Below the pieces are notes generated by a model, which saw only the letters and a program-made list of their open reading frames with translations, did no database searches and was not told the origin of the DNA. The position numbers were made by a program, and so were the translations under genes. A DNA stretch of 64,000 bases from Salipiger abyssi (GTDB lineage: Bacteria; Pseudomonadota; Alphaproteobacteria; Rhodobacterales; Rhodobacteraceae). Positions 47,941 through 62,135 of this stretch are shown here, piece by piece (position 1 is the stretch's first letter; each line of letters opens with the position of its first letter). The stretch covers positions 62,001-126,000 of the forward strand of contig NZ_JAEKIS010000001.1 in NCBI RefSeq assembly GCF_017311415.1. The letters are read 5' to 3'.

Positions 47941-49278
47941 TCATGTACCCAACTCGTCGCGCGCTGTTGCCACCCCGTCGAGGAATTGGTCGAGAGAGCG
48001 TTTTCTGGCAGACCGATCAAATGCGTAGGCCGGTTGTTTGAATTGGTTGCCAGTCAGAAGCCCTGAGATGTAGCCTGCGACGGTATCGGCGGCCATGACG
48101 AGGCTGCTGTCGAGGGTATGCACATACTTGCTAGTCACCGAACCCTTCGAGTGCCCGAGGAGGGCCGCGATGGTGATTTCGCTGAAGCCAAGCTCGTGGG
48201 CTATGCTTGCGAAGCTGTGACGCAAGACATGTGCGGTGATATCCGAAAGTTCGGTGTTCTCGAACAACTGACGCCATCGTTTTGGAAAATTCCCGAAAGC
48301 GTTGTTGCCGCGCACACCTGGGAACACGAAGGGCCCTTCCTTCCTCAAGCTCTGCGTTTCCAGGAACTCGACAACCGCCAATCCTATCGGTCGTGTGGAC
48401 GCACCTTCCTTTGTCTCTGATAGCCGCAGACAGCTGTTGGGAAGATCGACATCGGACCAGCGGAGTTCGATGATCTCGCTGCGCCGGCAGCCCGTGAGGG
48501 CGATCTGGCGAACGATGCTGACCATGGTGGCGAGGTTTTCATCCCGCTCGGCCTTGTCCAGAATTTCCCCCATCAACTGATACTCGCTGTGCGTCAGACG
48601 CCGGTCGCGAACGCGATCTTTGGGCTTCTTGATGCCGTGCGCGACGTTCTTGTCGACGATGCCTGCCTCCGACGCATAGGTTAGGATACCGCCCAGTAAA
48701 CCGACCGCACGGGTTGCTGTGCCCTGGCCACCCCGCAAGATCGTCTTGCCCCTTAGCTTCTGGGTCTTTCGTGTGGCACGGGTCTTCCCGAGGATAATGT
48801 CATTCATCATCTTCGTAACATCCGCTTTGGTCAGATCGCGTACCCGCTTCTTGCCGATTAGCGGGATGATATGCCCATTGATCCGCCCAATATCGGTGGT
48901 GACCGTTGTTGGCCTCTTGGGTTGTCCTCGTTTCCCCAAGATCAGACCTGCGTGCAGGTCTTCTATGTAGCGCTCGCAGAGCTGTTGCACGGTCATGGCC
49001 TGTCGGTCGTCGTGGCGCTCTTCGGCCGGATCATCGCCCTGTGCGACGCGCCCAAGCTGGACCTTGGCCTCTCGTCTGGCTGTTTCGGCAGTCCAGATAC
49101 CGTGGAGGCCAATTGTATAGCGGCGCGACCGTCCGTCACGGCGATACTGGATCACGTAGCTGCGCTTCCCAGAAGCGAAAACACGCAGCCCGAAGCCAGA
49201 CAGATCGCTGTCCCAGACAACGTAGTCCTTCTTCTGGCTCTTAACGCTTTCAACCAACCGTTTTGTGATCTTTGGCAT
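47941..49278 (-). CDS. Tyrosine integrase with N-terminal DUF4102-like arm domain
   Basis: The protein has 445 residues from the ATG at 49278 (MPKITKRLVESVK). The N-terminal VWDSDLSGFGLRVFASGKRSYVIQYR is the DUF4102-like arm-type domain of island integrases. The catalytic domain has TGCRRSEIIELRW, HVLRHSFASIA, LGHSKGSVTSKYVH with the Arg, His-x-x-Arg, His and Tyr. It starts 183 bp from the tRNA-Arg fragment, the usual place of an integrase next to its attachment site, so it probably inserted the DNA to the left. Confidence 0.93.
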   Translation of the reverse strand: MPKITKRLVESVKSQKKDYVVWDSDLSGFGLRVFASGKRSYVIQYRRDGRSRRYTIGLHGIWTAETARREAKVQLGRVAQGDDPAEERHDDRQAMTVQQLCERYIEDLHAGLILGKRGQPKRPTTVTTDIGRINGHIIPLIGKKRVRDLTKADVTKMMNDIILGKTRATRKTQKLRGKTILRGGQGTATRAVGLLGGILTYASEAGIVDKNVAHGIKKPKDRVRDRRLTHSEYQLMGEILDKAERDENLATMVSIVRQIALTGCRRSEIIELRWSDVDLPNSCLRLSETKEGASTRPIGLAVVEFLETQSLRKEGPFVFPGVRGNNAFGNFPKRWRQLFENTELSDITAHVLRHSFASIAHELGFSEITIAALLGHSKGSVTSKYVHTLDSSLVMAADTVAGYISGLLTGNQFKQPAYAFDRSARKRSLDQFLDGVATARDELGT

Positions 49279-49460
49279 CGTCAACCTCATCATCTGAGCA
49301 ACTGAGCCGCGTAAGCACCACGTAAGCAGTCGGGGGGAAGCTACGGAGTAGTTGCGGCTATCGGTTTCGACGACGAGCGAGCTTAAACACAAGCGATTTT
49401 AAGATGTTAGCGTGCCGTGGCGTGCTGCGTCGCGCATTTCGGATAGGCCACGATTAATTG

Positions 49461-49505
49461 CTCCGAAGGCAGAGGCCATAGGTTCGAATCCTATCGGGTG
49501 CGCCA
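49461..49505 (+). tRNA. 3' fragment of tRNA-Arg(CCG), attachment site (attR)
   Basis: The 45 bases begin CTCCGAAGGCAG, i.e. anticodon loop CTCCGAA (anticodon CCG) and the 3' anticodon stem. They continue through the variable loop, the T arm GGTTCGAATCC and the acceptor end GGGTGCGCCA. No 5' half is present upstream, so it is not a functional tRNA. It is the displaced 3' end left by integration into a tRNA gene, with the intact gene expected to the left, outside the window. Confidence 0.8.
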
Positions 49506-49606: not shown

Positions 49607-50521
49607 TCAGGACATCCAGATCTCCTCGTACCCTTTCGCCTTGAAGTGATCGGAGAGGAATTCGATGAACAGCCGGGTCTTGGCCGGCATGTGGCGGCGG
49701 GCCGGGAAAGCCATGTTGATGGTGAGCTGCGGCAGATCCCAGTCGTCGAGCACACGCACCAGACGGCCCGCCTCCAGATCCTTTTGAACGATGTAGGAGG
49801 GCTGCGCGATGATCCCCATACCGTCGCGGGCGGCGGCCATCAGAAGCTGGCCCTCGTTGCTGGTCAGGACTGGCGTCACGTTGATCGTCGTGCGCGATTT
49901 GCCCTTGTGCATATGCAGCCGCAATGGGTCGTCCGCCAGCATGTAGACCAGCAACCGGTGGCGTTCGAGATCCTCCGGGTGGCGCGGCATGCCCATCTCG
50001 CCGATATAATCCGGCGAGGCGACGAGGCGACGGCGGGTCTTGGCCAGCTTGCGCATGGTGATCGAGCTGTCCTCCTCGACCCGCCGGGTGCGGATCGCGA
50101 GATCGACCCCGGTCTCGATAATGTCGTGATAGCGGTTGGAGGCCGTCACATCGACCTGGATACGCGGGTATTTCCGGGTGAACTTCGGGATCAGCGGCAT
50201 CAGGTGCAGCAGCGAGAACGAGGTCGACGCCGTCAGCTTCAGCGTGCCCGAGGGCGAATGCGACACGCTGCCGATCAGCGCCTCGGCGTCCTGAAGCTCG
50301 GCGAGGATCGACCTGCCGTAAGAACAGAAGAGCTCGCCCTCTTCCGTGAAAGAGATGCGCCGCGTGGTGCGGTTGACCAGCCGCACGCCCAGCCGCTCCT
50401 CCAGCGAGGCGAGATAGCGGCTGGTGGCCGAGACCGACTGGCCCAGCACCTCCGCCGCCTTGCTGATGCTGCCCTGCTCGACGATCTGTACGAGCACCTC
50501 GATCTCGGTGAACCTGTCCAT
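49607..50521 (-). CDS. LysR-family regulator of the hydroxyquinol cluster
   Basis: The protein has 304 residues from the ATG at 50521. The HTH is GSISKAAEVLGQSVSATSRYLASLEERLG, followed by the effector domain with SGTLKLTASTSFSLLHLMPLI. It is divergent to the Dabb gene; a 17-bp palindrome in the space between recurs in two other promoters of the cluster. LysR proteins usually activate divergent catabolic genes in response to a pathway intermediate. Confidence 0.9.
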   Translation of the reverse strand: MDRFTEIEVLVQIVEQGSISKAAEVLGQSVSATSRYLASLEERLGVRLVNRTTRRISFTEEGELFCSYGRSILAELQDAEALIGSVSHSPSGTLKLTASTSFSLLHLMPLIPKFTRKYPRIQVDVTASNRYHDIIETGVDLAIRTRRVEEDSSITMRKLAKTRRRLVASPDYIGEMGMPRHPEDLERHRLLVYMLADDPLRLHMHKGKSRTTINVTPVLTSNEGQLLMAAARDGMGIIAQPSYIVQKDLEAGRLVRVLDDWDLPQLTINMAFPARRHMPAKTRLFIEFLSDHFKAKGYEEIWMS

Positions 50522-50592
50522 GTCCCCCCGCCTTTCGCTATGAGCGCCGTCTTTGATCAATACGGGCGCAACCTATGGCACTTCAGTTCATT

Positions 50593-50609
50593 ATTGTGAT
50601 TTTCGCAAT
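50593..50609. promoter_or_regulatory. 17-bp palindrome, copy 1 of 3 (ATTGTG-N5-CGCAAT)
   Basis: ATTGTG, five bases, CGCAAT: same 6-5-6 geometry as the copies at 52270 and 55408. It lies between the LysR gene and the Dabb gene and contains a T-N11-A LysR-type core. One arm position is not symmetrical. Confidence 0.6.
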
Positions 50610-50730
50610 TATCTTTCCTTGCGGGGTCGATTTCTTTCGGAACCCGGAAAGGTAGGATGATCCGGCGATCTGTTGGAGGAGCAGGTGTAGAGCTTGCCGG
50701 TCATAGCGGCGGCGCACCGGAAGGAAGATC

Positions 50731-51042
50731 ATGATCAAGCATATCGTCATGTGGAACATGTCGGGGGAGACGGCGGCCGAGCGCGACGCGGCGGCGCAGA
50801 TCGTCAAGGAGAAATTCGAGGGTCTGCGCGACGCCGTGCCCGGGTTGATCGAGCTCGAGATCGGTATCGATGAGAGCCAGGTGGGCTATGCCTGTGACGT
50901 GGTGCTCTATTCCGTGTTCCGGTCGCGCGAGGCCCTGGCCGCCTATGCCAGCCACCCGCTGCACCTCAAGGTGCGCGAGGAGCTGGGGAATATGCGGATC
51001 GCCCGCTACCAGGTGGATTACGTTCCCGGCGGCGCGCTCTGA
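50731..51042 (+). CDS. Dabb (stress-responsive A/B barrel) domain protein
   Basis: The protein has 103 residues: IKHIVMWNMSGETAAERDAA, then VPGLIELEIGIDESQ and the C-terminal HPLHLKVREELGNMRIARYQVDY. Dabb proteins form small dimeric ferredoxin-like barrels; several act as decarboxylases, cyclases or isomerases on aromatic or polyketide compounds. A step in the neighbouring aromatic pathway is plausible. Confidence 0.88.
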   Translation: MIKHIVMWNMSGETAAERDAAAQIVKEKFEGLRDAVPGLIELEIGIDESQVGYACDVVLYSVFRSREALAAYASHPLHLKVREELGNMRIARYQVDYVPGGAL

Positions 51043-51082
51043 GCGCCCCCGGCAGGCGGGCGCCCGCCGGGGGCCGGTCTCG

Positions 51083-52147
51083 TCAGTGCCGGGACGGCGG
51101 GCGGCCATGGAAGGCATCCCCGAGCAGCAGCGTCAGCGCCTCGCGTTCCAGCGGACGGGGATTCCAGTAGGGATCCCTGAGGCTCAGCTCGACCACATGC
51201 TCGATCCCGTCCTCCGGCATGCCAAGCGCCTGTAGCCCCTCGGGCGCCCCGATCTCGCGCCCGATCGCGTAAAGCCGCCCGGCGGGATCGTCGGTCTTCA
51301 GCGCGGCGCGCAGCCGCTCCATCGCCTCGGGAATGGCGGGCGCCGTATAGGCCAGCGCATGGGGCAGGATGATGGCATGGGTGGCCGCATGCGGCGTGTC
51401 ATAGGCGCCGCCGATGGCGTGGCAGAGCTTGTGGTGCAGCGCCATGCCGACCGTGCCGAGGCAGGTGCCGCAGAGCCAAGCCCCGTAGAGCGCATCCGAG
51501 CGCGCCTCGCGGTCGCCGCCATCCTGCGCGATGCGCGGCAGGGCGTCGGTCAGCGCGCGCACCCCTTCGGCGGCGATCAGCGAGGTGATCGGATTGGCCT
51601 CCCTGCAATAGAGCGCCTCGACCGCGTGGGCGACGGCGTTCATCCCGCTCAGCCCCGACATCTCGGCCGGCAGGCTCATGGTCAGCTCGACATCGTAGAG
51701 CACGGTTTCCGGCAGCACCTTTTCGCTGCGCAGGGTGCGTTTCACCCCGTCGGTGGTCTCTCCCAGGATCGGCGTCATCTCGGAGCCGGCATAGGTGGTG
51801 GGGATGACGATCTGCGCCAGGTTGGTGCGCAACGCCAGCGCCTTGCCCAGCCCGATGGTCGACCCGCCGCCGAGCGATACGATGCCGTCCGCGCCCAGCG
51901 ATTTCAGCGATTTCAGCGCCTGTTCGGTGACTTCTGCCGGCGTATGCATGCGGGCGTCGCTGAAGATCCCGGCGCTGAGATCGCCGAGGCTCTTGGCGAC
52001 GGCGCCGACCTGCTCGGCCTGCTGCGGGGTCGAGAGCAGCAGCACGCGGGTCATGCCGGCGTTGCGGATCTCGTCGGCCAGTTTGTCGAGCGTGCCGAAG
52101 CCGAACAGGATGCGCCCGGGATTCGCGGTGTAGGTGAAATTGTGCAT
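51083..52147 (-). CDS. Maleylacetate reductase (iron-type alcohol dehydrogenase family)
   Basis: The protein has 354 residues from the ATG at 52147 (GGGGAGGAA upstream). Diagnostic text is FTYTANPGRILFGFGTLDKLADE at the N-terminus, VSLGGGSTIGLGKALAL (NAD site), IPTTYAGSEMTPILGETTDG and LHHKLCHAIGGAYDTPHAATHAIILPH. The enzyme reduces maleylacetate to 3-oxoadipate with NAD(P)H, the step after hydroxyquinol ring cleavage. It is divergent to the reductase/amidohydrolase genes across a 510-bp promoter region. Confidence 0.9.
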   Translation of the reverse strand: MHNFTYTANPGRILFGFGTLDKLADEIRNAGMTRVLLLSTPQQAEQVGAVAKSLGDLSAGIFSDARMHTPAEVTEQALKSLKSLGADGIVSLGGGSTIGLGKALALRTNLAQIVIPTTYAGSEMTPILGETTDGVKRTLRSEKVLPETVLYDVELTMSLPAEMSGLSGMNAVAHAVEALYCREANPITSLIAAEGVRALTDALPRIAQDGGDREARSDALYGAWLCGTCLGTVGMALHHKLCHAIGGAYDTPHAATHAIILPHALAYTAPAIPEAMERLRAALKTDDPAGRLYAIGREIGAPEGLQALGMPEDGIEHVVELSLRDPYWNPRPLEREALTLLLGDAFHGRPPSRH

Positions 52148-52657
52148 GGGTTCCTCCCCGATCTCGCGCCGGACTCCTGCGGGATATCCGGGGGCGAGCG
52201 TTGCGTTGAACAGCCGGAATCTTGGCAGTTGCGCGGGGCTCTTGGAACGCCGGGAGGGTGGGAAACATCTTTGCGGATTTGGCAAATATCCTGCGGTTCG
52301 AGGGTGTTCAGGGGGCGCGGGACTGCCGGTGTGCGGACGGGGAAGATGTGAGGATTCGCTAGAGGGTATGTTTTTAACCATATGATTTTCAACAATTATG
52401 ACTGGAATCACTCGATGACGTCACGTCTTCGCTTTGCCGCTTGCCCCGGCGTTTCCGGACTTGTGCGAAATTCGGGTGAATGGCGCGGTTGACCGGATTT
52501 GTGGCGGGCCGGGGATCTGGACAGCGCAAGGAGCGCGCTCCTAGGATCATGACCACTCGGAGGGCATCGAGCCAGCCTGGCGATGCCCGGCGGCGCCTTC
52601 TGGAAAACGCACAGCCGATGCCGGCCGGAGGGCCGCCGGGGAAGGGGAGGACGAGCT
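52148..52657. other. 510-bp divergent promoter region
   Basis: No gene is seen. The region is AT-richer than its flanks at 52340-52400 (TTTTTAACCATATGATTTTC) and contains the second 17-bp palindrome at 52270-52286. It should hold promoters for the maleylacetate reductase and for the reductase/amidohydrolase genes. Confidence 0.6.
52270..52286. promoter_or_regulatory. 17-bp palindrome, copy 2 of 3 (TTTGCG-N5-GGCAAA)
   Basis: TTTGCG, GATTT, GGCAAA: one mismatch from perfect symmetry and the same 6-5-6 spacing as copy 3. It lies between two divergent catabolic genes, about 120 bp from the maleylacetate reductase start. Confidence 0.65.
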
Positions 52658-53749
52658 ATGAACAAACCGCGGATCGCCTATGTGGGGACCGGCGCGAACG
52701 GCGCCGGGATCGCCGCCGACATGACCAATGCAGGCCATGACGTCACCATGATCGAGCAATGGCCCGATCATGTGGAGGCGATGCGCCGCAATGGCATCAT
52801 CGTCGATCTGCCGGGCGGGCGCTCGGAGACCACCGAGGTGCATGTCCGGCATCTGTGCGAAGTGGCCGAGATGCGCCAGCCCTTCGATCTCGTCTATCTC
52901 GGCATGAAGGCTTATGACACACGCTGGGCGGTCGAGCTGATCAAGCCGATGCTGGCCGAGGATGGAGTGGTGATCGGCATGCAGAACGGCATGACCCGGG
53001 GCACCATCGCCTCCATCGTCGGGCCGGAGCGCTGCCTTGGCGCGGTGATCGAGGTCACCGCGAACATGTACACTCCGGGCCGCGTCGACCGGCAGAGCCC
53101 GCGCGAGGAAAGCTGGTTCGCGCTCGAAGACAGTACTGCCGTTGGACCCGAGCGCGTGGCGCTTGCCGCCGAGGTGCTGGGCGCGGCGGGGCGGGTCGAT
53201 GTGGTGGCCGATATCCACTCGGCGAAATGGATGAAGCTCGCGGTGAACGCCGCCGAGCTGGTGACCTCGGCGCTGGTCAGGCTGCCGCTGATGCACGCGG
53301 CGAAAGACCCCGCGCTGCTGAACTTCATGCTGGCCACCGGGCGCGAGGCGGTTGCCGCAGCGGCGGCCGATGGCGCGATCCTGATGCCGATCCTCGGCAT
53401 GCCCGAGGATGTCGACACCACCGATCCCGCCGCCTTTGCCGATGCGCTTTTCGGCAAGGTGCTGTCGTCGTTCTGCCTGCCCGACACCGAAACCACCTGT
53501 TTGCAGGACTGGCGCAAGGGCCGGCGCAACGAGGTCGAGGAGCTGAACGGCTACGTCGCCGAGATCGCCCGCACCAACGGGCTGAAGGCGCCGCTCAATA
53601 TCTTCACCGTCGAGATGGCCCGCCGCATCGAGCGCGGCGAGCTGCCCTTCGACGAAACCAATCGTGACGCGATGGCGGCGGCACTGGCCGAGCATTACCC
53701 GGAGCTGGGAAATCTCGCCGGACTGCCCCCGCATCTGGCCGGCGCCTAG
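52658..53749 (+). CDS. Ketopantoate-reductase-like dehydrogenase (ApbA/PanE family)
   Basis: The protein has 363 residues from the ATG at 52658 (GGGGAGGAC upstream). The Rossmann start is IAYVGTGANGAGIAADMTNAG, then YLGMKAYDTRWAVELI and IGMQNGMTRGTIASIVG. The C-terminal half carries HSAKWMKLAVNAAELVTSAL, the PanE Lys region. It is longer than PanE (about 300) and lies in a catabolic cluster, so a 2-oxo or hydroxy-acid dehydrogenase with another substrate is likely. Confidence 0.85.
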   Translation: MNKPRIAYVGTGANGAGIAADMTNAGHDVTMIEQWPDHVEAMRRNGIIVDLPGGRSETTEVHVRHLCEVAEMRQPFDLVYLGMKAYDTRWAVELIKPMLAEDGVVIGMQNGMTRGTIASIVGPERCLGAVIEVTANMYTPGRVDRQSPREESWFALEDSTAVGPERVALAAEVLGAAGRVDVVADIHSAKWMKLAVNAAELVTSALVRLPLMHAAKDPALLNFMLATGREAVAAAAADGAILMPILGMPEDVDTTDPAAFADALFGKVLSSFCLPDTETTCLQDWRKGRRNEVEELNGYVAEIARTNGLKAPLNIFTVEMARRIERGELPFDETNRDAMAAALAEHYPELGNLAGLPPHLAGA

Positions 53750-53856
53750 GCGCCTCCGCACCGCTTCATGTGAAAGAGACCGGCCGGCCTTTGCCGCGCT
53801 GTGCGCCTCTGCGCGCACCCCCGGAGGAGGGGCCGAATGTTCAAGGGAGAGAGACC

Positions 53857-55302
53857 ATGACAAGACTTCTGATCAAGAATGCCGCCACCGTCACCATGGA
53901 TGACGCGCTCGGCGATTTCGAAAAGGCGGATATCCTGATCGAGGACGGCGCGATCAAGGAGATCCGCCCCGATATGGATGCCGATGCGAGCATCGACGCC
54001 GAGGTGATCGACGCCGAGGGCATGATCGCCATTCCCGGCCTCTGGGACGCGCATCGCCACACCTGGCAGACCGGGCTGCGCGGCATCCTCGCCGATGGCC
54101 GCATCCCCGATTATCTGCGCGGCTTTCGCATTCAGATGGCGACGCTCTATCGCCCCGAGGACATGTATGCCGCGAACTATGCCGGCGGGCTCGATTGCCT
54201 TGAGAACGGCGTGACCGGCCTGGTGGATTACTGTCACAACATCATCAACGAAGACTATGCCCGCGCCTCTGTCGAAGGGCTCAAGGCCTCCGGCGTGCGG
54301 GGGCTCTACGGGCACGGCATGGTGCCGGTGACCGAAAACACCTTCGCCGATGGGCGTGGCCTGTCCGAAGGCAATGAAAACGCCGATCTCAGCCACAATT
54401 GGCGCTATGAGACCGCGCGCGAGATCCGCAAGGAGTATTTCTCCGACGATGGCCTTCTGCGCTTCGGCATCGCGCCGCAGGAGCTGGCGATTGCCCCCGC
54501 CGCCGAGGTGGAGCAGGAATTCGAGCTGGCGCGGGAGCTGAATTCGCGCATCACCTTCCACAGCAATCAGGTCGCCGTGCCCAATGGCGGCATGCGCGAT
54601 ATGCACACCCTGTCGGAGCACGGGCTGCTGGGGCCGGATGTGAACCTTGTGCATATGACCTTCACCAACCCCGACGAATGGGACATTCTCGATGGCTCCG
54701 GCGCGTCCGTGACGCTTTGCGCGGAAACCGAGATGCAGATGGGCATGGGCTTTCCGGTGGCCGTCGAGGCGACGCGCTACACAGACGCGGGGCCGAGCCT
54801 CGGCATGGATTGCACCAGCAGCACCAGCGGCGACATGCTGGCCCATGCGCGGCTCGTTCTGCAATGCACCCGCTGGCATGGCGATGCGGTGCATTACGAG
54901 AATTTCAGCCACCCGAAAAAGATCCACTGGACGACGCGCGACGCGCTGGCCTGGGTCACGATCAACGGCGCGCGGGCTGCGGGGGTCGACGATATCACCG
55001 GCTCGCTGACGCCGGGCAAACGGGCCGACATCGTGCTTCTGGATATGCGCGGCATCGCCTTTGCCGGCTGGAACCGCAAGGATCCGTGCAGCATGGTCGT
55101 CTCACAGGCCAATAGCCGCAACGTGCACACGGTTCTGGTCGACGGCAGGATCGTCAAACGGGGCGGGCCGCTGCTGCATGTCGATCCGGAGGCGGCGGTG
55201 GCCAGGCTCGAAAGCTCGCATGATTTCCTCAACGAGGCCATGGAAGAGAACGGCGGCTTCATCCCTCAGCCGCCGGTGCCGCTGCCGCTTTACGAGGCCT
55301 GA
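53857..55302 (+). CDS. Amidohydrolase (AtzA/TrzN/SsnA-type)
   Basis: The protein has 481 residues from the ATG at 53857. It starts LLIKNAATVTMDDALGDFEKA; the metal ligands are in PGLWDAHRHTWQTGLRG, later ITFHSNQV, then GPSLGMDCTSSTSGDM with the Asp. SLTPGKRADIVLLD ends the composite beta domain. Enzymes of this branch deaminate or dechlorinate heterocycles or open amides; the place here suggests the initial attack on the imported substrate. Confidence 0.88.
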   Translation: MTRLLIKNAATVTMDDALGDFEKADILIEDGAIKEIRPDMDADASIDAEVIDAEGMIAIPGLWDAHRHTWQTGLRGILADGRIPDYLRGFRIQMATLYRPEDMYAANYAGGLDCLENGVTGLVDYCHNIINEDYARASVEGLKASGVRGLYGHGMVPVTENTFADGRGLSEGNENADLSHNWRYETAREIRKEYFSDDGLLRFGIAPQELAIAPAAEVEQEFELARELNSRITFHSNQVAVPNGGMRDMHTLSEHGLLGPDVNLVHMTFTNPDEWDILDGSGASVTLCAETEMQMGMGFPVAVEATRYTDAGPSLGMDCTSSTSGDMLAHARLVLQCTRWHGDAVHYENFSHPKKIHWTTRDALAWVTINGARAAGVDDITGSLTPGKRADIVLLDMRGIAFAGWNRKDPCSMVVSQANSRNVHTVLVDGRIVKRGGPLLHVDPEAAVARLESSHDFLNEAMEENGGFIPQPPVPLPLYEA

Positions 55303-55349
55303 TCCGGCCTCTGCGCGGCCCCGGCTCGCGATGCGGGCCGGGCCGCGTG

Positions 55350-55379
55350 CCGATGCGCGCAGAGTGTTGCGCGCATCGG
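55350..55379 (+). terminator. Strong hairpin after the amidohydrolase gene
   Basis: CCGATGCGCGCA (55350-55361) and TGCGCGCATCGG (55368-55379) form a perfect 12-bp stem with a 6-base loop 47 bp after the stop codon. No T-run follows, so it could be a Rho-assisted terminator or an RNA-stabilising hairpin rather than a classic intrinsic terminator. It separates the amidohydrolase from the next promoter. Confidence 0.5.
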
Positions 55380-55407
55380 GTGTCTGCCATTCGCTCGTCG
55401 GTTCTGA

Positions 55408-55424
55408 TTTGCGGATGGCGCAAA
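55408..55424. promoter_or_regulatory. 17-bp palindrome, copy 3 of 3 (TTTGCG-N5-CGCAAA)
   Basis: TTTGCG, GATGG, CGCAAA: a perfect palindrome, 131 bp upstream of the YciI/ABC transporter/dioxygenase genes and after the hairpin. Same geometry as the sites at 50593 and 52270. Confidence 0.7.
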
Positions 55425-55554
55425 AATATTTCCCGAAAATGCCAGATTATCCCGCGTTTGGGGAAATGCCATGATGCTTTAACCAGACGGTCCGGGGTCC
55501 GGACCGCGCCGCATCAGGCCCCGGGACGGGGCGGCGGCGGGAAGAGGAGAAACC

Positions 55555-55848
55555 ATGCTGTTCGCAATCCACTGCCTTGATCATCCCGGAAAAACCGACG
55601 ACCGGCTGGCCCATTACGACGCCCACAAGGCCTATCTGGCCACGGCGCCGATGGCCTCGGTGATCTCCGGCCCGCTGCTGGCCGGGGACAACGAAACCAT
55701 GATCGGCTCGCTCTTTGTCGTCGAGGCCGAGCGCATCGAGGATGTGCGGGCCTTCAACGCCGCCGACCCGTTCAACAAGGCCGGCATCTGGAAAGAGATC
55801 AATATTCACCCCTTCAGCATGCGCGTCGACAACCGGGCGTCGCGCTGA
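55555..55848 (+). CDS. YciI-like protein
   Basis: The protein has 97 residues: LFAIHCLDHPGKTDDRLAHY with HKAYLATAPMASVISGPLLAGD, then FVVEAERIEDVRAFNAADPF. This is the YciI fold with the conserved His and Asp pair. Characterised relatives act as muconolactone-type isomerases, dehydrochlorinases or accessory proteins of dioxygenases. It is the first gene of the transporter/dioxygenase operon. Confidence 0.88.
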   Translation: MLFAIHCLDHPGKTDDRLAHYDAHKAYLATAPMASVISGPLLAGDNETMIGSLFVVEAERIEDVRAFNAADPFNKAGIWKEINIHPFSMRVDNRASR

Positions 55849-55921
55849 AGGAGGGCGGAGCCGCGCAAGGCTCCGTTACAATCGAAGGCCCCGGGAGGGG
55901 GGCCGAAAGGGAGGGAACATT

Positions 55922-57055
55922 ATGACCTATTTCACGCATGTGAGTGGCAAGGGCGTCTCGCTCGCGGCGATGATCGCCGGCGCGACGCTGGCGCAGCCGG
56001 CGCTGGCCGACGATGTGCTCGCCGAGGCAAAAGCCATGGTCGAGCAGGGCTATGCGGGGCTCTACGAGGCGCCGCCGGAAACCGGCCCCGCCGCCGTCAC
56101 GGACAAGACCATCTGGTATATCTCCTGCGGCCAGGCCTTTGTGCTCTGCGCCCAGCAGGCCGAGGGCTTTGCCGAAGCGGCGGAGCAGCTGGGCTGGGAG
56201 ATCAGCATCCAGGATGGCAAGGCGACGCCCTCGGTTGCCAGCGACATCATTCGCCAGGCGGTCGCCGCCAAGGCCGATGGCATCGCAATCTCCGCCTTCG
56301 ACTGTCCGGGCGTGAAAAGCGCGCTGTTGCAGGCCAAGGCCGAGGGCATCCCCGTCGTCTCGGTCCAGTCGATTGATTGCAGCGCCGATGTGTTCGGCAG
56401 CGAGGAGCCGCTTTTCACCGCCTCAGTCAATATGCTGGGCTCCACCGATGCGCGCGATTTCTACTATCGCTTCGGCGAGCTGCGCGCCAATTACGTGATC
56501 GCCAGGACCGAAGGGCAGGGCAAGGTGATCTCCATCGCCGAGACCAGCCAGCAGGTTCAGCAGATGAACCACAAGGGGTTCATGGACACCATCGCCAAAT
56601 GCGAGGGCTGTGAGGTCGCGGAATCGACGTTCAACTTCGGTCAGGTGCCGAGCCCCGCGACGCAGATCTGGCAATCGGCGCTGCTGCAAAACCCCGATGC
56701 GGTCGCGGTGGAATACGGCATCGACGCGCTGATGGAGCTGGGGCTTCAGACGGCTGTGCGGCAATCGGGCCGCAGCGACCTTGTGGTCGGCGGGGGCGAG
56801 GGCTTTCCGAACAATTTCGACCTGATCCGCCGGGGCACGCAGACCTTTTCCATCGCGCTGCCCTTCAAATGGTTCGGCTGGGCCGTGGCCGATACGATGA
56901 ACCGGGTGCAGGCGGGCGAAGACCCAACTGAGATGCCGAACCAGGGCACGGGCTTCATCTTTGTCGATGCCGAGCACAACCTGCCGGAACCGGGCGAGAT
57001 GCTGGAGCCGAAACTGGATTTCCGCGCGGCCTATCTGTCGGTCTGGAACGGCTGA
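55922..57055 (+). CDS. ABC importer substrate-binding protein (ribose/CUT2 type)
   Basis: The protein has 377 residues from the ATG at 55922. The signal peptide ends near residue 29 (GATLAQPALADD). The periplasmic fold is of the sugar-binding Peripla_BP_4 group: KTIWYISCGQAFVLCAQQAEG, then DIIRQAVAAKADGIAISAFD. CUT2-type proteins bind pentoses, but relatives near aromatic genes bind other polar ligands. It should define what the pathway imports. Confidence 0.88.
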   Translation: MTYFTHVSGKGVSLAAMIAGATLAQPALADDVLAEAKAMVEQGYAGLYEAPPETGPAAVTDKTIWYISCGQAFVLCAQQAEGFAEAAEQLGWEISIQDGKATPSVASDIIRQAVAAKADGIAISAFDCPGVKSALLQAKAEGIPVVSVQSIDCSADVFGSEEPLFTASVNMLGSTDARDFYYRFGELRANYVIARTEGQGKVISIAETSQQVQQMNHKGFMDTIAKCEGCEVAESTFNFGQVPSPATQIWQSALLQNPDAVAVEYGIDALMELGLQTAVRQSGRSDLVVGGGEGFPNNFDLIRRGTQTFSIALPFKWFGWAVADTMNRVQAGEDPTEMPNQGTGFIFVDAEHNLPEPGEMLEPKLDFRAAYLSVWNG

Positions 57056-57154
57056 CCACTGGCGGCGCCCGGAGAGGATCCGGGCGCGGTCTGGCACAGG
57101 CTCACGATGCCCCGGATTGCCGTTGCGCACCCTGTGCGGAAGAGGGAGGACCCA

Positions 57155-58711
57155 ATGCAAAACATGACAGAGCGGGCAGAGGTGACCTCTGCGCTGCGGA
57201 TAAACACCCTGTCGAAATCCTTTGGCCAGACACAGGCGCTGGACGAGGTGAGTTTCGAGATCCGGGGAGGCGCCATTCACGGGCTGCTCGGCGGCAACGG
57301 GTCGGGCAAGTCGACGCTGATCAAGGCGCTGGCCGGGGTGCAGCCGGCGGATCACGGCGGCAGTTTCGAGTTTCTCGGCACCAGGGTCGCCGCCGATCAC
57401 ATGACGCCCGAGCTGTCGCGGTCGCTGGGGCTGCGCTTTGTGCACCAGAACCCGGCGGTGTTCCCGTCGATGACCGTGGCCGAGAACATCGCCATCGGCG
57501 CCAGCTTTCCCACCACCGCCGGCAAGATCCGCTGGAAGGCGCTGCGCCGCCACACCCAGGAGCTGCTCGACCGGTTCGAGATCGACGCCCGCGCCGGCGA
57601 CATGGTGGGCGATCTGCGGCAGGCCGAACAGACGATGATCGCCATCGCGCGGGCGCTTCAGGATGCCGATGAAAACGCCGTCTCGGCGCTGGTGCTGGAC
57701 GAGCCCACCGCCTCGCTGCCTGACCACGAGGTCGAGATCCTGCTCGATGCGGTGCGCCGCTTTGCTGCCGCCGGGCATACGATCATCTATGTCAGCCACC
57801 GGCTCGACGAGGTGATCCAGCTTACCGATGACGTGACCATCCTGCGCGACGGGCGCCACGTTGTGACGCGCCCGACCGAGGGCCTGTCGGAGGCCGGGCT
57901 GATCGAGCTGATCGTCGGCCACAGCCTTGAGAAATCCTATGCCTCGGCGCAGGCCGCCACGCCCGCGCCGCAGGGCGCCTCCCGGCTTGAGGTGCGCAAC
58001 CTCTCGGGCGGGCCGCTGCGCGACGTGTCCTTCGATGTCGGGCGCGGCGAGGTGCTGGGCATCGCCGGGCTGCTCGGCTCGGGCCGCACGGAACTGCTGC
58101 GGATGCTCTTCGGCGATCTGGAGCGTGAGGGCGGGACGGTGACGCTCGACGGCAGCGCGGTGCGCTTTGCCGAGGTGCGCGAGGCGATGGCGGCGGGCGT
58201 CGCGCTGGTGCCCGAGGATCGCAACCGCGAGGGCGTGTTTCAGGGCCTTTCGGTGCGGCACAACCTCTCGATTGCCGACCTTGGGTGTTTCACCCGTGCG
58301 GGCCGGATCAACGGCACCCGCGAGCGGCAGGAGGCGCGGCAGTCGATTGCCGATCACCGGATCAAGACCGCCGACGACGCGGCGCTCATTTCGTCGCTCT
58401 CGGGCGGCAATCAGCAAAAGGTGGTGATGGCGCGATGGCTGCGGCGCAAGCCAAGGCTGCTGCTGCTCGACGAGCCCACCCAGGGCGTCGATGTGGGCGC
58501 GCGCGAGGATCTTTACGCCGCGATCCGCGCCAGCCTGAGCGACGGCATGTCCGTCATCGCCGTCAGCTCGGATTTCGACGAGCTCGCGCAGATCTGCGAC
58601 CGCGTGGTCGTGCTGCGCGATGGCTGCATCACCGACGAATTGCGGGGCAAGGACATCACCCGCCAGCAAATGACACATCTGGTACTCGCCAGCGGAAAGG
58701 ATGCCGCATGA
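57155..58711 (+). CDS. ABC importer ATP-binding protein (two ABC domains, CUT2 type)
   Basis: The protein has 518 residues from the ATG at 57155 (GAGGGAGGA upstream). Domain 1 has Walker A LLGGNGSGKSTLIKAL (45-60) and Walker B SALVLDEPTASLP, with an atypical signature GDLRQAEQTM. Domain 2 has a degenerate Walker A GLLGSGRTELLRML but a complete signature LSGGNQQKVVMARW and LLLDEPTQGVDVGARED. This asymmetry is normal for the RbsA/XylG type. Its stop overlaps the permease ATG. Confidence 0.92.
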   Translation: MQNMTERAEVTSALRINTLSKSFGQTQALDEVSFEIRGGAIHGLLGGNGSGKSTLIKALAGVQPADHGGSFEFLGTRVAADHMTPELSRSLGLRFVHQNPAVFPSMTVAENIAIGASFPTTAGKIRWKALRRHTQELLDRFEIDARAGDMVGDLRQAEQTMIAIARALQDADENAVSALVLDEPTASLPDHEVEILLDAVRRFAAAGHTIIYVSHRLDEVIQLTDDVTILRDGRHVVTRPTEGLSEAGLIELIVGHSLEKSYASAQAATPAPQGASRLEVRNLSGGPLRDVSFDVGRGEVLGIAGLLGSGRTELLRMLFGDLEREGGTVTLDGSAVRFAEVREAMAAGVALVPEDRNREGVFQGLSVRHNLSIADLGCFTRAGRINGTRERQEARQSIADHRIKTADDAALISSLSGGNQQKVVMARWLRRKPRLLLLDEPTQGVDVGAREDLYAAIRASLSDGMSVIAVSSDFDELAQICDRVVVLRDGCITDELRGKDITRQQMTHLVLASGKDAA

Positions 58712-59733
58712 CCATGGTCAAGGAAACCAAACATATCGCAAACCCGCCCAGGGGCGGCGGCTCGGTCAACTGGACCGAGTTCTTCGAACGCTCGGGGCTG
58801 ATCCTGCTGCTGCTGCTGGTGATCACCGTCTTCGCCATCCTGCGGCCGAACACCTTCGCCACCTACGCGAATTTCCGCAGCATCGCGACGGTGCAGCCGG
58901 TCATGGCGGTGACCGCCATCGCGCTCATCGTGCCGCTGATCGGCGGGCGGTTCGACGTCTCGGTGGGCGCGACGCTGGGGCTTTCGGCCATCGTCACCGC
59001 CTCGGCCATGAGCCATTTCCAGCTGCCGCTGGCGGCGGCCATCGGGCTGGGGGTTCTCTCGGGCGCGCTGATCGGCGCGGTCAACGGCACCATCGTGGCC
59101 TATCTCGGGGTGAATTCGATCATCGGCACGCTGGGCATCGCCACCATCCTCGGCGGCGTGGTGACCGGCTACACCAACGGCATTCCGATCAGCAGCGGGC
59201 TCTCGCCGATCCTGACGGATATCTCGATCCAGTCGGTGCTGGGCATTCCGGTGCTGTTCATCCTCATGGCGGTGATCGCGGTGGCGGTCTGGTTCGTGCT
59301 GACCCAGACGCCCTATGGCCGCAACCTCGCCGCGGTCGGTGCCAATGCCGATTCCGCCCGGCTCGCGGGGATCCGCAGCAAGCGCGTGGTGATGCAGAGC
59401 TTTGTCATCGCCGGTGCGCTGGCGGGCATCGCGGGGGTGCTCCAGATCGGTGCGCAGGGCAATGCCGGGCCGCAGCTCGTCGGCATCACCTTCATCCTGC
59501 CGGCGCTGGCCGCCGCCTTCCTCGGCGCGACCACCTGGCAGCCGGGCCGGTTCACCGTGCAGGGCACGATCATCGGGATCTTCTTCCTCGGCACCACGAT
59601 CAGCGGTCTGTCGCTGGTGGGCATTCAGCCCTGGATCACCGATGTGTTCAACGGCGCCGCCGTGGTGCTGGCGATTGCGCTCTCCGCGCAGCTGCGCCGC
59701 CGCCGGACCGGGTCGCTCGATATCGGCAGCTAA
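58708..59733 (+). CDS. ABC importer permease (RbsC/CUT2 type)
   Basis: The protein has 341 residues from the ATG at 58708, which overlaps the ATPase stop. There are about nine or ten membrane helices, and the family blocks are GGRFDVSVGATLGLSAIV, VAYLGVNSIIGTLGIATILGG and GANADSARLAGIRSKRVVM (the EAA-like cytoplasmic loop). It completes the importer with the binding protein and ATPase. Confidence 0.92.
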   Translation: MTMVKETKHIANPPRGGGSVNWTEFFERSGLILLLLLVITVFAILRPNTFATYANFRSIATVQPVMAVTAIALIVPLIGGRFDVSVGATLGLSAIVTASAMSHFQLPLAAAIGLGVLSGALIGAVNGTIVAYLGVNSIIGTLGIATILGGVVTGYTNGIPISSGLSPILTDISIQSVLGIPVLFILMAVIAVAVWFVLTQTPYGRNLAAVGANADSARLAGIRSKRVVMQSFVIAGALAGIAGVLQIGAQGNAGPQLVGITFILPALAAAFLGATTWQPGRFTVQGTIIGIFFLGTTISGLSLVGIQPWITDVFNGAAVVLAIALSAQLRRRRTGSLDIGS

Positions 59734-59752
59734 GCCGGGAAAGGACGCACGC

Positions 59753-60595
59753 ATGACAAAGTATTTTTCCGAAGACCAGTCGGTCGACGTCGTAAATGCC
59801 CGCATGGGCGGGGAGATCAATCCCCGCCTGCGCGAGGTGATGACCAGCCTCGTCAGCCACCTGCATGCCTTCGCCAAGGAGGTCGAGCTGACCCAGGCCG
59901 AATGGGATCTGGCCATCGAGTTCCTCACCAGGACCGGGCAGATCTGCACCGAGGAACGGCAGGAGTTCATTCTGCTCTCGGACGTTCTGGGCTTTTCGAT
60001 GCTGGTGGACGCGATCAACAACCGCCGCCCCGCGGGCGCGACCGAGAACACCGTCTTCGGCCCGTTCCACGTCGCCAATGCGCCGGTGCGGGAGTACGGC
60101 GCGACGATCTCGCTCGACGGCAAGGGAGAGCCCTGCCATTTCACCGGACGGGTGCTGGATCTCGACGGCAACCCGATTGCCGGCGCCTGCGTCGATGTCT
60201 GGAGCGACAATTCGGATGGCTATTACGATGTGCAGCAGCCCGGTATCCAGCCGAAATGGAACAACCGGGGCCGCTTCATGAGCCGCGAGGACGGGCGCTA
60301 CAGCTTTGTCGGCATCAAGCCGGTGAGCTATCCGATCCCGGATGACGGGCCTGTGGGCAAGATGCTGGGCGCGCTCGGGCGTCACCCCTACCGGCCCGCG
60401 CATATGCATTTCCTTGTGACCGCCGAGGGCTATGACACCATCGTGACGCATACCTTTGTCGGCGAGGACAGCTATATCGGCGATGACACGGTGTTCGGCG
60501 TGAAAGAGACCCTCGTCGCCCCCTTCGTCCGGGACGGGGAGGGTGCATGGCGCTCGGATTATGATTTCGTGATGGTGCCGTCGACGCAGGAATAG
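59753..60595 (+). CDS. Hydroxyquinol 1,2-dioxygenase (intradiol ring-cleavage)
   Basis: The protein has 280 residues from the ATG at 59753. The iron ligands fit the catechol-dioxygenase spacing: Tyr157 (GYYDVQQ), Tyr193 (PVSYPIP), His217 and His219 (YRPAHMHFLV). The N-terminal dimer helix and GATENTVFGPFHVANAP are typical of the hydroxyquinol branch. Its product, maleylacetate, is the substrate of the reductase at 51083. It ends the operon. Confidence 0.92.
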   Translation: MTKYFSEDQSVDVVNARMGGEINPRLREVMTSLVSHLHAFAKEVELTQAEWDLAIEFLTRTGQICTEERQEFILLSDVLGFSMLVDAINNRRPAGATENTVFGPFHVANAPVREYGATISLDGKGEPCHFTGRVLDLDGNPIAGACVDVWSDNSDGYYDVQQPGIQPKWNNRGRFMSREDGRYSFVGIKPVSYPIPDDGPVGKMLGALGRHPYRPAHMHFLVTAEGYDTIVTHTFVGEDSYIGDDTVFGVKETLVAPFVRDGEGAWRSDYDFVMVPSTQE

Positions 60596-61784: not shown

Positions 61785-62135
61785 TCAGGGCGACAGGCTG
61801 GCGATATAGCTCGCGATCAGATCGCGCGAGCGCGCCATGTCTTCGAGCTTGCGGTCGAGCTTTTCCAGCTCGCCGTCGAGACGCGCGCGAAGGTTTTCGC
61901 AGGGATCGAAGCGCGGTTCGGGACTGATGATGCAGGGCAGCAGGTCGCGCATCGCCTCGATGGTCAGCCCGGCATCGGCGAGCTGGCGGATCCGGCGGGC
62001 TTCTTCGACATCCGCCTCGGAATAATCGCGGTAGCCGCTGTCGCGCCGGAGCGGCGTCAGCAGCCCCTCGGTCTCGTAGTAGCGCAGCATCCGCACGCTC
62101 ACGCCGCTGCGCTCGGAAATCTCGCCGATCTTCAT
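61785..62135 (-). CDS. MerR-family transcriptional regulator
   Basis: The protein has 116 residues from the ATG at 62135. The HTH is IGEISERSGVSVRMLRYYETEGLLTPLRR, a near-perfect MerR start, followed by the dimerisation coiled coil (LRARLDGELEKLDRKLEDMA). It is short, with no clear Cys metal site (only LPCIISPEPRFDPCENL with two Cys), so metal sensing is uncertain. It is divergent to the alpha/beta hydrolase over a perfect dyad. Confidence 0.9.
   Translation of the reverse strand: MKIGEISERSGVSVRMLRYYETEGLLTPLRRDSGYRDYSEADVEEARRIRQLADAGLTIEAMRDLLPCIISPEPRFDPCENLRARLDGELEKLDRKLEDMARSRDLIASYIASLSP

Follow-up and report, generated by a model that had tools for sequence, protein, structure and literature searches.

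Three similar palindromes lie between the genes of a catabolic cluster of Salipiger abyssi, and this locus raises the question of whether they form one operator, which protein would bind it and which genes it would serve. The window analysed here is a stretch of 64,000 nucleotides (positions 62,001 to 126,000 of contig NZ_JAEKIS010000001.1, forward strand); all coordinates below are positions within it. The original prediction had seen a shared 17-bp palindrome in three promoters and assigned it to the LysR-type regulator encoded at 49607-50521. The best explanation as a whole, with a probability of about 0.87, is that this LysR protein acts on three boxes and activates a hydroxyquinol regulon; judged from sequence, the three sites are very probably its operator.

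The three sites and the unit they share

A sequence check and Pfam assignment of the neighbouring genes bore out the three palindromes and their places between genes. Site 1 (ATTGTGATTTTCGCAAT, 50593-50609, plus strand) holds the box TTGT-N7-GCAA at 50594-50608 and a flank, TTATCTTTCC, reaching to 50618; it faces the gene of a Dabb-domain protein, divergent from the LysR gene. Site 2 (TTTGCGGATTTGGCAAA, 52270-52286) is read on the minus strand, with the box TTGC-N7-GCAA at 52285-52271 and the flank AGATGTTTCC to 52261, and faces the maleylacetate reductase gene. Site 3 (TTTGCGGATGGCGCAAA, 55408-55424, plus strand) has the box TTGC-N7-GCAA at 55409-55423 and the flank AAATATTTCC to 55433, and faces an operon that begins with a YciI gene. 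All three sites contained T-N11-A within an imperfect dyad, the T and A standing at box offsets 1 and 13.

When the window was searched with TTTGCG-N5-CGCAAA at up to 3 mismatches, 27 matches were obtained against 35.9 expected by chance, and site 1, which has 3 mismatches, is therefore not above chance on this pattern. Sites 3 (no mismatch) and 2 (one mismatch) were the only matches with at most one mismatch and the remaining 25, site 1 included, all had 3; the claim that the window holds no further copy is true at up to 2 mismatches. At that level the pattern occurred at 206 places in the whole genome (5,212,682 bases, 75 contigs), compared with 187 for the reversed control, and the 17-bp form with arms of six and a spacer of five was dropped as a genome-wide motif because it was unspecific. 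A second exact 17-bp copy lies elsewhere in the genome (G000:C1:621121, locus L048), by eye near a tRNA-Leu-like stretch and an SRPBCC-like open frame; tblastn at 1e-8 found none of the cluster's proteins around it.

The outermost T/A and innermost G/C of the 17-bp form differed among genomes in the alignment of relatives. All three predicted sites exist, but what is conserved is TTGC-N7-GCAA with a directional flank beside it, together a 25-bp sequence, TTGC-N7-GCAA-N2-AT-N-TTTCC, in which the flank is conserved on one side of the box only and points toward Dabb, maleylacetate reductase and YciI. With this extended pattern at up to 2 mismatches, the genome of 5.21 Mb gave 8 matches and the reversed control 1. 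The three best matches genome-wide were sites 2 and 3 (no mismatch) and site 1 (one mismatch, 14/15), and the other five had 2. The many unrelated copies that could have spoken against a regulon thus exist for the loose pattern but not for the extended one. Within the window, 6 extended matches were found at up to 3 mismatches against 0.85 expected, a count reached by none of 100 shuffles; two of the six were other-strand overlaps of the sites themselves.

The same intergenic regions in relatives showed all three sites again in three other genomes. In a panel of 41 genomes, 20 of them of the genus (own genome included), G006 carried the LysR protein at 95% together with a syntenic cluster. In Tropicimonas sp. 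IMCC34043 (L060) and Celeribacter neptunius (L061) all ten proteins were present, with LysR first and the dioxygenase last, the locus ending within the dioxygenase. Each of these 20.9-kb loci contained TTGC-N7-GCAA three times, with a single copy per intergenic region of interest. All twelve expected boxes were therefore present across the four genomes. At sites 1, 2 and 3 respectively, 7, 8 and 8 of the 8 arm positions did not vary (23/24), compared with 0, 3 and 3 of the 7 spacer positions (6/21) and 40, 41 and 36% of the intergenic regions overall.

In a larger sample of 45 relative loci (906,071 bases, three of 48 having been removed as duplicates), 46 extended matches fell in 30 loci, compared with none for the reversed control and 0-4 for eight column shuffles. 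Among 39 dereplicated instances (of 49, window and relatives together), offsets 37-42 read TTTATC, with 59-82% agreement per position, although these offsets lie outside the search pattern. We read this by eye as a -35-like element, with -10-like hexamers 16-18 bases further on; the conserved TTTCC at offsets 20-24 stands between the -35-like element and the box.

Association with a LysR subfamily

The box was tied to relatives of the LysR protein in other genera. The set comprised 51 regions with a LysR identity of at least 44%, the window included (six of 46 loci fell below 44% and were dropped); removal of one short region and nine near-duplicates left 41 regions from 39 loci. As an unbiased measure of palindromes, all 4-base half-sites were paired with their reverse complements and counted at spacers of 1-13. 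TTGC-N7-GCAA ranked first both upstream (20/51; runner-up 8) and downstream (15/51; runner-up 9) of LysR. After dereplication it was again first upstream (18/41; runner-up 6) and occurred downstream in 11/41, whereas TTGC with any other spacer of 2-13 was seen in 0-1 regions upstream and 0-2 downstream. Under a Markov model 0.38 upstream occurrences were expected, with a maximum of 4 in 500. In a more distant set of 27 LysR genes (33-38% identity) no upstream region held the box, and the assignment of the operator to this LysR subfamily was thereby supported.

An exact box lay near LysR in 28 of the 41 related regions; when an extended match of at least 13/15 anywhere in the locus was also accepted, the number rose to 32. 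Maleylacetate reductase and dioxygenase were both nearby in 32/41, and Dabb in 27/41. The helix-turn-helix (HTH) region also separated the two groups. Positions 35 and 37 were R and L in all 49 subfamily proteins and position 30 was V in 38, compared with K (25/27), V (24/27) and K (23/27) at positions 35, 37 and 30 of the distant proteins. These residues fit a different operator, though they are no proof alone.

At E 1e-70, the LysR protein was detected in 3 of 394 genomes of the family (G000, G341 and G395). In a family draw of equal size, seemingly of those same 394, the exact extended pattern occurred in two (G000 and G341), and G395 had a 14/15 match beside its LysR gene (L058). The amidohydrolase of the cluster, used as an anchor, was found in no other genome among the 394 at E 1e-110 and on no plasmid at 1e-80.

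In relatives, downstream frames were chosen with a simple criterion that passes over short genes, Dabb among them, and 20 of the 38 chosen were scanned. They encoded nine sugar-type binding proteins (Peripla_BP_4), four xylose-isomerase-like TIM barrels, three maleylacetate-reductase-type dehydrogenases, and one each of a coenzyme A (CoA) transferase, an aldehyde dehydrogenase, an EthD protein and an acyl-CoA dehydrogenase. Rhizobial hydroxyquinol clusters (L054, L056, L062, L065, L069 and L084) contained sugar-type ATP-binding cassette (ABC) importers and xylose-isomerase-like TIM barrels, and their contents suggest that hydroxyquinol derives from a polyol- or cyclitol-like compound.

Target promoters, mechanism and alternatives

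Promoters were read by eye from the four-genome alignment, with the conservation at offsets 37-42 as a further guide for the first and third. The predicted Dabb promoter (50631-50658, plus strand) consists of TTTCTT (50631-50636), 16 bases and TAGGAT (50653-50658), which places the box centre at about -64. For maleylacetate reductase (52219-52248, minus strand), weak hexamers, GTTCCA (52248-52243) and CAAGAT (52224-52219), are separated by 18 bases, with the box centre at about -66. The predicted YciI operon promoter (55447-55475, plus strand) reads TTATCC (55447-55452), 17 bases and CATGAT (55470-55475), again with the box centre at about -66. Box centres at -64 to -66 of the predicted starts would be near the usual position of the LysR T-N11-A box.

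Sites 1 and 3 face Dabb and the YciI operon, as had been proposed. However, site 2 had been expected to drive a divergent pair of reductases, and its flank points in all four genomes to maleylacetate reductase, whose start is 138 bp from the box. The ketopantoate-reductase-like gene on the other side starts 372 bp from the other end of site 2 and has a predicted promoter of its own about 250 bp away (TGGACA-N18-TAGGAT, 52518-52547, plus strand, 9/12 in a consensus scan), so it is probably not a direct target. Site 2 therefore probably drives maleylacetate reductase only. The separate promoter is predicted to serve the ketopantoate-reductase-like and amidohydrolase genes; the four genomes share its hexamers, except that one has TAAGAT in place of TAGGAT. 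Within its spacer lies an imperfect inverted repeat (AGCGC...GCGCT) that three of the four genomes retain and that reads GCAAAGATTTGC in Celeribacter; this repeat is possibly the operator of another regulator. Downstream of site 1, at 50633-50652, a block TTTCGGAA-N2-CGGAAAGGTAG is strongly conserved in the four genomes and overlaps the predicted Dabb promoter; it may include a second binding element.

By the mechanism we propose, the LysR protein would sit on the primary boxes (T-N11-A, here TTGC-N7-GCAA) about 65 bp upstream of the predicted transcription starts and reach across the adjacent TTTCC element toward the -35 region. With a pathway inducer, it would activate rather than repress three transcripts, namely Dabb, maleylacetate reductase and the YciI-importer-dioxygenase operon. 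The box between LysR and Dabb would probably also serve autoregulation.

Three other explanations were weighed against this one. The sites could be real operators bound by a regulator encoded elsewhere, with the LysR gene merely nearby, and at least 53 further LysR-like matches in the same genome provide candidates. We consider this unlikely: the box follows the LysR subfamily across genera (upstream in 18 and downstream in 11 of the 41 regions) and was absent upstream of the 27 distant genes, T-N11-A symmetry is a hallmark of LysR operators in the excerpted texts of PMC6449761, PMC8407307 and PMC4834489, and Pfam revealed no regulator other than LysR among the cluster genes at 49607-60595. 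Less probable again is that the palindromes arose by chance in AT-rich intergenic DNA. The abundance of the 17-bp pattern in the genome and the ordinary score of site 1 are what chance would give, but this explanation was largely refuted by arms that stay invariant beside variable spacers in four genomes and by an extended pattern whose best matches genome-wide are the three sites. The arms could also pair in RNA, as a leader hairpin, an attenuator or a terminator. However, folding of the three strands was no better than that of shuffles (z of -1.16, 0.09 and -0.46) and no terminator-like site was found at the three positions, and the RNA role was dropped on these two results. The conserved -35-like element downstream of the box also implies that the box should not be transcribed, leaving this the least probable explanation of all.

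Several observations weigh against LysR acting on the three boxes, or limit the evidence for it. The Dabb, maleylacetate reductase and YciI promoters read by eye were missed by the consensus scan, which recovered only the ketopantoate reductase promoter (two sites at the 9/12 level, compared with 1.1 expected in shuffles). The only arm difference among the four genomes is in the window's own site 1, which has TTGT where the other three have TTGC. The extended pattern was derived in part from the same relatives in which its matches were later counted, and the distant LysR genes seem to be mostly one orthologous group, so they amount to fewer than 27 independent tests. In nine of the 41 related regions the box was missing near LysR and the locus had no extended match either. 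Finally, in 385 genomes of the class the exact extended pattern occurred in G000 and G544, and the G544 match (L114) is a miss for specificity because none of eleven proteins searched was present in the 3 kb around it.

Genes of the cluster and known LysR systems

The regulator is a protein of 304 amino acids encoded on the minus strand, with ATG at 50521; a TTG lying 39 bases further upstream is another possible start of the frame. It carries an N-terminal HTH_1 and a C-terminal LysR_substrate domain, both above the Pfam cut-off. No NCBIfam model reached its cut-off. The best profiles belonged to the YafC/TtdR/AaeR group, and because all scored far below their cut-offs (YafC 237 of 470 bits), the protein is not a member of that group by NCBIfam.

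The Dabb-domain protein (103 amino acids, 50731..51042, plus strand) was assigned by Pfam. Maleylacetate reductase (51083..52147, minus strand) belongs to the iron-containing alcohol dehydrogenase family (Pfam Fe-ADH), and its best solved relatives, 3w5s (E 3.3e-119) and 3hl0 (1.3e-118), are both maleylacetate reductases. The ketopantoate-reductase-family (ApbA/PanE) protein (363 amino acids, 52658..53749, plus strand; Pfam ApbA and ApbA_C) is followed by an amidohydrolase (481 amino acids, 53857..55302, plus strand; Pfam Amidohydro_1) that exceeded the cut-off of NF006056 in NCBIfam (408 of 391 bits). The YciI operon (55555..60595, plus strand), assigned by Pfam, encodes the YciI protein (55555-55848), a sugar-type ABC importer composed of binding protein (55922-57055), ATPase (57155-58711) and permease (58708-59733), and an intradiol dioxygenase of the hydroxyquinol type (59753-60595). 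Of the solved structures, 8r2x, a 6-chlorohydroxyquinol 1,2-dioxygenase, was nearest to the dioxygenase (E 2.8e-133); no chlorocatechol or catechol enzyme did better than 2.9e-37.

A hydroxyquinol 1,2-dioxygenase and a maleylacetate reductase, the pair expected of a hydroxyquinol cluster, are thus both predicted. The best solved relatives of the two enzymes point to the segment hydroxyquinol to maleylacetate to 3-oxoadipate, with an importer, and by homology the cluster is a catabolic unit for hydroxyquinol (1,2,4-trihydroxybenzene).

The proposed mechanism is that of a textbook LysR system. As described in excerpts of PMC8407307 and PMC4834489, LysR promoters carry, besides a T-N11-A box near -65, an activation site further downstream. 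The CatR/CatM/BenM and ClcR/TfdR regulons resemble the present one in the excerpted text of PMC6449761: LysR is divergent from its target, the operator is an odd T-N11-A palindrome, a recognition site adjoins an activation site and intradiol dioxygenase genes are among the targets. However, their consensus there is AkACC-N5-GGTAT, a form that the boxes here do not follow, having TTGC-N7-GCAA and a fixed TTTCC flank. The ring-cleavage product also differs, being muconate in those systems and maleylacetate here, as judged from the enzymes. In the ThnR promoters for tetralin degradation the primary T-N11-A site likewise lies near -65; a conserved element, ATTTC, follows downstream at -49 to -45, and changing ATTTC abolished activation of PB (excerpt of PMC4834489). 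The (G)TTTCC element here occupies a similar place; the ThnR pathway and box are different.

The box sequence and the subfamily appear undescribed in the papers searched. No hydroxyquinol LysR operator was described in the titles and abstracts searched and TTGC-N7-GCAA was unmatched with LysR, although the search was narrow and is weak evidence of absence. We tentatively suggest, as an idea with the odds against it, that TTGC-N7-GCAA-N2-AT-N-TTTCC marks an undescribed LysR subfamily in several alphaproteobacterial orders, coupling sugar-type ABC import (and, in rhizobia, xylose-isomerase-like TIM barrels) to hydroxyquinol cleavage. If so, hydroxyquinol would be an intermediate from an imported polyol- or cyclitol-like compound and not only from aromatic pollutants; the gene types behind the operator in relatives are the reason for proposing an imported sugar- or cyclitol-like feed. 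In relatives the operator precedes genes for sugar-type ABC binding proteins, for TIM-barrel isomerase-like enzymes and for a CoA transferase, so it could be used to read what feeds the hydroxyquinol pathway in alphaproteobacteria. What began as a motif spotted by eye can now be put to the test as a regulon: it has a directional operator of 25 bp and three proposed target transcripts, and its presumed regulator belongs to a subfamily sampled at about 50 loci.

ARAGORN found no tRNA genes in the window. Beyond the LysR gene, by eye, a tyrosine-recombinase-like open frame (47941-49392, minus strand) lies beside a fragment resembling a tRNA 3' end (about 49481-49505), and the region 47941-49505 may mark where an integrated element borders the catabolic cluster.

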